Assembly: GCA_028710885.1 (NCBI GenBank)
Contig: JAQTTG010000003.1
Coordinates: 248,001-312,000 of the forward strand
DNA from: Sulfuricurvum sp.
Lineage (GTDB): Bacteria > Campylobacterota > Campylobacteria > Campylobacterales > Sulfurimonadaceae
Length of the DNA stretch: 64,000 nt
Direction of reading: 5' to 3'
The translations under genes and the position numbers were made by a program. Shown here piece after piece: positions 17,922-60,752 of the stretch; positions within the stretch are counted from its first letter, which is position 1; the number at the start of each line of letters is the position of its first letter. The notes beneath the pieces were generated by a model, which searched no databases, was not told the origin of the DNA, and saw only the letters and a list, made by a program, of their open reading frames with translations.

Positions 17922-17927
17922 TATAAT
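17922..17927 (+). promoter_or_regulatory. -10 box of the DEAD-box helicase gene
   Basis: TATAAT preceded by an A/T-rich run. The predicted transcript start near 17934 gives an unusually long leader of about 160 bases before ATG at 18096. Confidence 0.6.
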
Positions 17928-17933
17928 TCCATT

Positions 17934-18095
17934 TGAATTTTGGGTACCTTCTAAAGATATGAAAACATATTTTTCAAAGGTGCCCTCGCGGATGAGAATC
18001 CAACTTATCCTCTTTTAAAATTTCTCTCCCCTATGATAGGGCAAGCGTAACTGGCCGGAATAGGTTTTCTGGTGGCGTATATATAAAGGTAAATC
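17934..18095 (+). ncRNA. Structured 5' leader (candidate cis-regulatory RNA) of the DEAD-box helicase
   Basis: Four consecutive hairpins are visible by eye. P1 pairs GGGTACCTT (17942-17950) with AAGGTGCCC (17977-17985), nine pairs with one G-U, capped by ATATG/CATAT (17957-17961/17966-17970) and an AAAA loop. P2 pairs GGATGAG (17990-17996) with CTTATCC (18004-18010), one G-U, and is followed by TCTTTT. P3 pairs CCCTA (18029-18033) with TAGGG (18037-18041). P4 pairs CCGGAA (18055-18060) with TTCTGG (18067-18072). TGCCC in P1 could instead pair with GGGCA (18039-18043), which would break P1 and P3. I do not recognise a known riboswitch. No gene lies between 17775 and 18095. Confidence 0.5.
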
Positions 18096-19691
18096 ATGAA
18101 CATTACAGAAGAAACAATCACAGAAAATCTCGTAACATTTGAAGATTTCGGTCTCCGTGATGAGATAATGCAAAGCATCCGTTATGCAGGATTCAAAACA
18201 CCAAGTCCGATTCAACAAATGGTTATTCCAGTTATTATGGAAGGGCGTGACGTTGTAGGACAAGCCCATACTGGTACGGGTAAAACAGCTGCATTCGGTC
18301 TTCCTGCATTGAATAAAATGCATTTAAAAGGGGGAATTGAAACCCTCATCATTACGCCAACACGTGAACTTGCAAACCAAGTAAGTGATGAAATTTTCAA
18401 ATATGGTAAACATCTCGGTGTTCGTACCGTAACAATTTATGGTGGTTCATCGTATAACCGACAAATGGATTTGATCGAGCGCGGTGCACAAGTCATCATT
18501 GCTACCCCAGGACGTTTGCTTGATATGTTGAGCCGTAATATGCTCAAAGGCTTTACTCCTTCAACGGTAATTCTAGATGAAGCAGATGAAATGCTTGATA
18601 TGGGATTTTTGGATGATATCAATGAGATTTTCAGCTATTTGCCGACTGAGCGTCAAACGTTACTTTTCTCTGCAACAATGCCGACTCCGATCAAACAATT
18701 GGCTGAGCGCATTTTGGTAAATCCATTTTTTGCTTCAATAACCAAATCAGAGACAACAAATACAGATATTACTCAACAGTACTATGTAATCGAAGAATCA
18801 GAACGTGATGATGCAATTATCCGTTTGATGGATGCTGAAGATGCGAAAAAAACAGTTGTATTTTGCCGAACGAAAAAAGAGGTTGATCGTCTCTCTAATG
18901 TACTTTCTGCTGCAGGATACTCAGCGAAAGGCCTTCATGGAGATATGGAACAACGTCAACGTGAAAGCGTTATTAAAGGGCTAAAAACCGATGCAGTTGA
19001 TGTTTTGATTGCTACTGACGTAGCGGCACGCGGATTGCACATTGATGACGTTACTCACGTTTTCAACTACCATATCCCGTTTGACCCTGAGAGCTATGTT
19101 CACCGCATCGGACGTACAGGACGTGCAGGTAAAAAAGGTGTTGCTATTACCTTGGTTACTCCAATGGAATTCAAAGAACTTCAACGTATCCGTGCCAAAG
19201 TTGGTACAACGATGGAACATGCGTATATTCCTAGTAAATTAGATGTTAAAGAGGCTCAGGTTACTCGTCTTGTTAATGAAATCGAAAAACAGCACGTTTA
19301 CGATGAAGCGCATAAAGTATTGGATTTATTGAAACAAGATTATGATCAAGAGCAAATTGCGTATAAATTGATCTCAGTTTTGATGGAACGTAATACAGTA
19401 CAAGGGCCGAACAATATTGGTATTGCTGCTGAGCGTTTGGAAAAAATTCTTAGTAATCTTGCCAATCGTCATGATCGTGGTGGTCAACGAAGCGGTGGAT
19501 ATCGTGGTAGTAACAATCGAAGCGGTGGTGGATACCGTGGAAATAATGACCGCAATGGTGGTGGAGAACGTAGCGGTGGCGGATACCGTGGAAATAATGA
19601 TCGTAACGCTGGTGGTGGAGAACGCGGTGAGCGTTCACGCAGTTTTAGTGGTGGCGGTAATCGTTCAGCTAGTAGTAAACCTAGAAGCTAA
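18096..19691 (+). CDS. DEAD-box ATP-dependent RNA helicase with Gly/Arg-rich tail
   Basis: 531 residues. Motifs in order: Q motif about 34-41, motif I AHTGTGKT 57-64, PTRELA 88-93, DEAD 161-164, SAT 192-194, and motif VI HRIGRTGR 336-343. The tail at 461-531 is rich in Gly, Arg and Asn and contains repeated RSGGGYRGNNDR units, typical of RNA-binding extensions in CsdA/RhlE-type helicases that act in ribosome assembly or mRNA decay in the cold. It has its own promoter and a long structured leader, suggesting autoregulation or temperature control. The last 27 bases overlap the convergent HIT gene. A specific symbol (deaD, rhlE) is not assigned. Confidence 0.93.
   Translation: MNITEETITENLVTFEDFGLRDEIMQSIRYAGFKTPSPIQQMVIPVIMEGRDVVGQAHTGTGKTAAFGLPALNKMHLKGGIETLIITPTRELANQVSDEIFKYGKHLGVRTVTIYGGSSYNRQMDLIERGAQVIIATPGRLLDMLSRNMLKGFTPSTVILDEADEMLDMGFLDDINEIFSYLPTERQTLLFSATMPTPIKQLAERILVNPFFASITKSETTNTDITQQYYVIEESERDDAIIRLMDAEDAKKTVVFCRTKKEVDRLSNVLSAAGYSAKGLHGDMEQRQRESVIKGLKTDAVDVLIATDVAARGLHIDDVTHVFNYHIPFDPESYVHRIGRTGRAGKKGVAITLVTPMEFKELQRIRAKVGTTMEHAYIPSKLDVKEAQVTRLVNEIEKQHVYDEAHKVLDLLKQDYDQEQIAYKLISVLMERNTVQGPNNIGIAAERLEKILSNLANRHDRGGQRSGGYRGSNNRSGGGYRGNNDRNGGGERSGGGYRGNNDRNAGGGERGERSRSFSGGGNRSASSKPRS
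19488..19622 (+). repeat. In-frame tandem repeats coding for the RGG-like tail of the helicase
   Basis: Three units encode RSGGYRGSNN, then RSGGGYRGNNDRN plus GGGE, then RSGGGYRGNNDRN plus AGGGE (residues 465-509). The last two are nearly identical at DNA level, so slippage or recombination could change copy number. Confidence 0.8.
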
Positions 19692-22644: not shown

Positions 22645-23058
22645 TTACGAAATTTCGCGGCCTGAAAAGAAAAATGCGATTTCAATTGCTGCATTTTCAG
22701 CAGAGTCACTTCCGTGAACAGCATTAGCATCGATATTTTCAGCGAAATCAGCACGGATTGTTCCTGCAGCTGCTTCTTTAGGGTTTGTTGCACCCATCAA
22801 ATCACGGTTTTTAAGAATAGCGTTTTCACCTTCCAAAACGGTGATAACAACTGGACCGCTTACCATAAAATCAACTAGGTCGTTGAAAAAAGGGCGTGCA
22901 GCATGTACTGCGTAAAACGCTTCTGCGTCTTGACGTGAGAGTTGAACTTTTTTCATAGCCGCGATTTTAAGACCGTTACTTTCGAAACGATCCAAAATTT
23001 TACCGATGACACCTTTTGCTACGGCGTCAGGCTTGATGATTGACAACGTTTGTTCCAT
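22645..23058 (-). CDS. ndk: Nucleoside diphosphate kinase
   Basis: 137 residues, full length. It equilibrates NTP and NDP pools. N-terminal [16 protein letters not shown] and the active-site His in [12 protein letters not shown] are diagnostic. AGGAGCATTG precedes ATG at 23058; a TTG one codon earlier is not needed. It is the first gene of the yceD-rpmF-plsX-fabH group behind a TATAAT promoter. Confidence 0.96.
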
Positions 23059-23094
23059 CAATGCTCCTGTTTAGTGTGTAAAAAATAGAACGGG

Positions 23095-23100
23095 ATTATA
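23095..23100 (-). promoter_or_regulatory. -10 box of the ndk operon
   Basis: TATAAT on the minus strand, 36 bases before the ndk start. No clear -35. Confidence 0.6.
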
Positions 23101-23155
23101 GCGAAACAATAATTTAGGTAATATTAAAGATGATTTGATTCAGGTAAGAAGAAAG

Positions 23156-23180
23156 TTTGGAGAGGTAAAACCTCTCCAAA
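23156..23180 (-). terminator. Intrinsic terminator after the ferredoxin gene
   Basis: A perfect 10-bp stem TTTGGAGAGG/CCTCTCCAAA with a 5-base loop, 9 bases past the ferredoxin stop codon. On the minus strand it is followed by CTTTCTTCTT. Confidence 0.8.
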
Positions 23181-23189
23181 ATGTATCAA

Positions 23190-60578: not shown

Positions 60579-60653
<75 letters not shown>

Positions 60654-60677: not shown

Positions 60678-60752
<75 letters not shown>

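Follow-up and report, generated by a model that had tools for sequence, protein, structure and literature searches.

We found, in the window (the whole stretch of 64,000 nucleotides analysed here), a gene for a DEAD-box RNA helicase, probably of the RhpA/CshA/CsdA type, whose 531-amino-acid product combines DEAD and Helicase_C domains with an RGG-rich tail. The best match of this protein is the CshA model, at a score of 500 bits that lies below the curated cut-off of 646, and its best-matching named records are from Sulfuricurvum (84-91% identity). A leader of about 160 nt separates a TATAAT box from the helicase ATG, and positions 17942-18079 of it comprise four hairpins, P1 to P4, arranged as follows:

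17922-17927, forward strand: -10 box TATAAT, identified from the sequence
near 17934, forward strand: probable transcript start, predicted from the sequence
17942-17985, forward strand: P1, with a 9-bp base (17942-17950/17977-17985), a 2x2 internal loop and an inner helix (17953-17961/17966-17974)
17990-18010, forward strand: P2, stem 17990-17996/18004-18010, followed by TCTTTT at 18011-18016
18029-18041, forward strand: P3, stem 18029-18033/18037-18041, whose register differs among relatives
18045-18078, forward strand: P4, base 18045-18048/18075-18078, inner stem 18054-18059/18068-18073
18085-18089, forward strand: Shine-Dalgarno (SD) sequence AAAGG, predicted to be mostly unpaired (unpaired probability 0.82)
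18096, forward strand: start codon ATG of the helicase gene, identified from the sequence
18096-19691, forward strand: DEAD-box RNA helicase gene

The multi-hairpin leader that a preliminary description had read from this sequence is thus present with all of its stems, including P1 as a 9-bp stem with a capped inner helix. Folded up to position 18120, it reaches a predicted minimum free energy of -47.6 kcal/mol versus a mean of -37.4 for shuffled sequences (z -2.9), none of 200 dinucleotide shuffles being as stable. Among the 63 upstream regions within the window, to which this ranking applies, the leader comes third by fold stability (z -3.64, mean -0.49, standard deviation 1.24). Another unusually stable fold (z -3.7) is located at 23062-23189, in the upstream region of gene 22645-23061 on the minus strand, and may represent a terminator that belongs to the gene before it.

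The distance between a -10-like box and P1 is 13-15 nt in 39 of 39 leaders, and exactly 14 nt in 26 of them, which would leave about 7 nt between the probable 5' end and P1. Such a constant spacing argues for transcription from the TATAAT box, with P1 capping the 5' end of the mRNA, and the conserved box speaks against a transcript that starts just before the ATG.

Covariation and search for further copies

Near-identical leaders were restricted to one genus, that of the window's assembly (G000:C20). From upstream regions sampled from genomes of this genus that carry the helicase orthologue, we compared 37 distinct leaders: 13 of the window type (v1), 4 of a sister form (v1') and 20 of a more distant type (v2), which has the same hairpin order as v1 plus an insertion in P4. 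A more divergent leader (L164) was excluded from these counts. Across 12 aligned v1/v1' leaders, 97.2% of the P1-P4 positions formed standard pairs versus 93.5% after shuffling (0 of 500 shuffles), 6 pairs had changed on both sides (0 of 500 shuffles) and 15 compensated cells stood against 4.3 in shuffled alignments, figures that are not probabilities, because the leader sequences are mutually related. When the 3' partners were slid, pairing dropped to 42-53%.

Covariation among aligned leaders, on which the preliminary description had made its reading depend, was found in most of the hairpins. In the 12 v1/v1' leaders, the inner helix of P1 holds three compensated pairs, the inner stem of P4 two, and P2 one together with a one-sided pair change; no variation occurs in the P4 base or in most of the P1 base, which are therefore uninformative. 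Covariation of P3 is weak in v1. In v2, as read off predicted folds, P3 occurs as GUCUC/GAGAC, GUCC/GGAC, GCCC/GGGC and GCCCC/GGGGC; for the added hairpin P4c, the variants are AGGAA/UUCCU, AGAAA/UUUCU and AAGAA/UUCUU. Fixed-register counts for P2 and the P4 base in v2 gave compensation not above that of shuffles, and the register of P2 slips between sequences. According to this comparison, the hairpins are evolutionarily maintained through matching base changes, that is, the leader is a conserved folded one. In two v1' leaders (L180 and L183), P2 and P3 are separated by an additional hairpin, AGAACTYRGCGAGTTCT.

A covariance model (R1), trained on the 12 v1/v1' leaders only and run against 41 whole genomes, recovered all 17 v1/v1' leaders genome-wide as well as, at the helicase gene, 15 of the 20 untrained v2 leaders and L164, with E values of about 1e-5 to 0.05; other matches were few. 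Outside the genus, it matched no helicase leader in the family sample. On inspection, the off-target matches were of two sorts, hairpins resembling P1 from a pst-type intergenic region and REP-like copies of P4, and no second gene bearing the whole leader was among them. Of the 41 genomes, 38 contain the P1 pattern, once each at the helicase gene, and the one extra copy in each of the genomes G057 and G104 is located in the pst-type intergenic region. In four Sulfuricurvum genomes, the interval between a PstS-like gene and the gene that follows it holds a P1-like hairpin, GGGTACCTTTAA...TTTAAAGGTGCCC, with TCGTGG or TTGCGG after it; the P1-like hairpins at pst-type loci are:

L228, 1026-1138
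L231, 1076-1191
L232, 1036-1142
L233, 1031-1109

Several conventional switches were considered and abandoned. The run TCTTTT does follow P2, but is replaced by TCATTAAAA and similar sequences in relatives, so that the terminator-like role suggested for it is not supported. Likewise, the segments TGCCC (17981-17985) and GGGCA (18039-18043) are complementary as described, but the alternative pairing proposed from them shows no covariation, only breakage in relatives. An anti-SD/SD switch, in which the P1 5' strand (UACCUU) would pair with AAGGUA, gave duplex energies that in most genera were not more favourable than those of shuffled sequences (Fisher p = 0.16 for 23 representatives; the sole outlier was genus g3, L188). 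Masking of the SD was rejected as well, as its unpaired probability in the predicted ensemble averages 0.78 over the 37 leaders. A non-conserved T-run, an open SD and an anti-SD pairing not above chance together provide no evidence for a terminator or an SD-masking switch.

P4, a dispersed palindrome and leaders in other genera

P4 is homologous to a low-copy, REP-like intergenic palindrome, GCGTAGCCAATCGG-N-TCCGATGGCGT, which is GTAG-tagged and dispersed in both orientations among unrelated genes, with up to about five relatives per genome. As a class, GTAG-tagged REP repeats have been reported from every proteobacterial division (PMC3733652). The dispersed relatives of P4 resemble this family in being intergenic and in consisting of GTAG and then an imperfect palindrome, but they differ in number, each genome having about 0-5 exact copies instead of many, and most v1 leader copies, the window's P4 included, read GTAA and sit at a single gene. 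In a comparison of the sequences, the P4 of L158 (G082) and a dispersed copy were identical at 24 of 32 positions. Copies of the dispersed element were located at:

G000:C17:21118-21149 (L241)
G000:C20:124631-124662 (L242)
L230, L235-L240 and L243-L260

The dispersed element has a second hairpin before the GTAG-tagged palindrome and is often found between convergent genes, at a distance of 6-7 nt from a stop codon. The window's genome also encodes a 177-amino-acid Y1 transposase-domain protein that resembles REP-associated tyrosine transposases (L261, G000:C13:48627-48848, minus strand); no P4-type palindrome was found beside this gene, its one Y1 transposase-like gene.

Because P4 is related to a dispersed repeat, the leader gives the impression of a mosaic, with a 5' part specific to the helicase gene and a 3' part that resembles the repeat. 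We infer that descent ran from repeat to leader, and the same kinship implies that part of the conservation could stem from the repeat's origin.

Structured leaders also precede the helicase orthologues of other genera, where promoter calls were automatic and some are probably wrong: their median fold z is -2.3, and 24 of 39 lie below -2, against 7 of the 63 upstream regions of the window. In g2, the largest sister genus, whose helicase resembles named Sulfurimonas records, the leader forms a compact hairpin GGRGAAGRUGC...GCUUGUAUCAUCUCC; hairpins of the type GGACACCU...AGGUGUCC occur on helicase leaders in several further genera, and the Sulfurospirillum helicase gene has a long structured leader, too. 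No long structured leader was found at the Aliarcobacter and Sulfurovum loci with an identified start codon, nor, by inspection, a comparable leader at any of the remaining four DEAD-box genes in the window's genome. The presence of structured leaders on the same gene in many genera favours a regulatory role over chance; as leaders from different genera are not alignable, a mechanism common to them is an assumption.

Two observations concern individual genera. The Sulfurimonas-type leaders (L208-L226, for example L210 and L225) consist of a single compact hairpin that ends just before the SD and has a near-invariant core and a variable apical stem. In genus g3 (L188, L189), a strand CUUUUUCA can pair in two ways, with the leader's 5' part or with UGAAAAAG across the SD, possibly representing a two-state leader.

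Possible functions of the leader

Judged from these comparisons, the element is a structured 5' leader of about 160 nt that belongs to the gene of a DEAD-box helicase, probably of the degradosome type, and is conserved through Sulfuricurvum. Our tentative preference, held with slightly less than even confidence, is that it acts in cis as an autoregulatory or mRNA-stability element, through a presumed feedback of RNase J and the helicase on the helicase's own mRNA. It would then be a post-transcriptional control element, most likely an autoregulatory one: the 5'-terminal P1 would shield the helicase mRNA against attack of RNase J on the 5' end, and abundant free helicase, the partner of RNase J, would unwind P1 and thereby accelerate the decay of its own mRNA in a negative feedback. 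With the helicase occupied, in the cold or by many misfolded RNAs, P1 would stay closed and helicase synthesis would rise. The open SD fits control through stability, not through SD masking.

By analogy with known systems, such a feedback loop, in which a helicase unwinds its own leader as the preliminary description had proposed, is plausible. In a survey of Epsilonproteobacteria, one CsdA-like helicase (RhpA in Helicobacter) was reported in nearly all of them, together with RNase J and without RNase E, and in H. pylori the rnj 5'UTR region becomes more active when RhpA or RNase J is lost (PMC5874925). This case shares with ours the phylum, the protein partners of the RNase J-RhpA degradosome and a proposed post-transcriptional feedback on a 5'UTR, but it concerns rnj rather than the helicase gene and no structure was described (PMC5874925). 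That RhpA feedback was reported for rnj, not for rhpA, counts against autoregulation, as does the finding that the H. pylori RhpA protein is not induced at 33 C (PMC5874925). In Synechocystis, CrhR autoregulates its own expression (PMC3485376); here, too, a DEAD-box helicase gene controls its own expression with temperature, but no conserved leader structure was defined and the organism belongs to another phylum (PMC3485376). The E. coli rne 5'UTR, cited within PMC5874925, likewise is a structured leader on the gene of an RNA-decay enzyme, RNase E, with a proposed decay feedback for autoregulation; in Sulfuricurvum, the gene is that of a helicase, the nuclease would be RNase J, the structure is unrelated and the feedback is one that we infer.

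A bolder version, which we consider rather unlikely, would make the leader a direct sensor of helicase activity: the encoded helicase would unwind P1, which carries an SD-like strand for an upstream start codon, and thus toggle 5'-end decay or upstream initiation, so that the helicase level matches demand. In other genera, RNA structures of another kind would have arisen on this gene to the same end, and in Sulfuricurvum a REP-like repeat would have been recruited.

The leader might instead respond to temperature in the manner of cold-shock genes, with cold altering its fold or stability and thereby raising helicase production without the helicase acting on its own mRNA. CsdA-type helicases serve cold adaptation, RhpA is required at low temperature (PMC5874925), and GC-rich stable stems lie next to AU-rich linkers in the leader, but the missing cold induction of H. 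pylori RhpA (PMC5874925), together with the lack of any conserved alternative fold and of SD masking, makes this explanation rather unlikely.

Could the structure be a constitutive stabiliser, in which P1 simply shields the 5' end, and P3-P4 go back to an old REP-like insertion that was retained by chance or because it adds stability, with no regulation at all? The position of P1 as a 5' cap and the dispersal of P4 homologues between unrelated genes would agree with this, but conservation exceeds what pairing requires (GCAAGCGTAACTG is identical in v1/v1', CCTTCCATGG in v2) and different structured leaders evolved on the same gene in other genera, so that we regard it as unlikely.

A further explanation invokes initiation upstream of the helicase gene. 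The 3' strand of P1 contains an SD-like AAGG that is followed by an AUG at a fixed spacing (8 nt on in v2, 11 nt on in v1) in 33 of 37 leaders, and the CCUU/AAGG of P1 is invariant across all 37 although adjacent pairs vary. Opening of P1 could therefore expose AAGG and AUG, and ribosomes starting there might alter helicase initiation or mRNA stability. This is quite improbable, since the start is missing at that spacing in three or four v1' leaders and the CCUU/AAGG invariance could reflect pairing alone. A leader peptide was rejected: upstream starts recur, but the peptides, at 4 to more than 50 codons, are not conserved. In the window, a possible upstream reading frame (MRIQLILF and a stop codon) lies at 17992-18018, with its SD-like AAGG within the 3' strand of P1.

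Very improbable, finally, is a riboswitch-like binding site for another regulator (a small molecule, or a ribosomal or other RNA-binding protein), because the highly conserved stretches that would suggest it, and for which the four stems do not account (for example CAAGCGTAACTG in v1, CCTTCCATGG and AACATGGGC in v2) are offset by the missing Rfam match, by the lack of a conserved terminator or SD-masking platform, and by v1 and v2 cores that differ beyond what a ligand pocket would tolerate.

In agreement with the initial impression that the leader belongs to no known riboswitch class, no Rfam family matched it on its strand, even with E values up to 5. Our search of open-licence papers found no description, for this group, of an RNA motif that precedes DEAD-box helicase genes, and the literature search yielded no description of a cold-box in csdA leaders. 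The structure and its mosaic composition appear to be new; structured leaders on RNA-decay genes are already known as a kind. If the leader reports the activity of the helicase or the degradosome, it would reveal how bacteria that rely on RNase J, and are reported to be without RNase E, balance RNA decay, and would serve as an in vivo reporter for helicase activity. Either way, it is an RNA structure that covariation supports, that Rfam does not contain and that was apparently built in part from a dispersed repeat.

Elsewhere in the window, two tRNA genes on the minus strand (60582-60653 and 60681-60752) are arranged in tandem, 27 nt apart; both score 67.2 bits with Rfam and are possibly identical copies.
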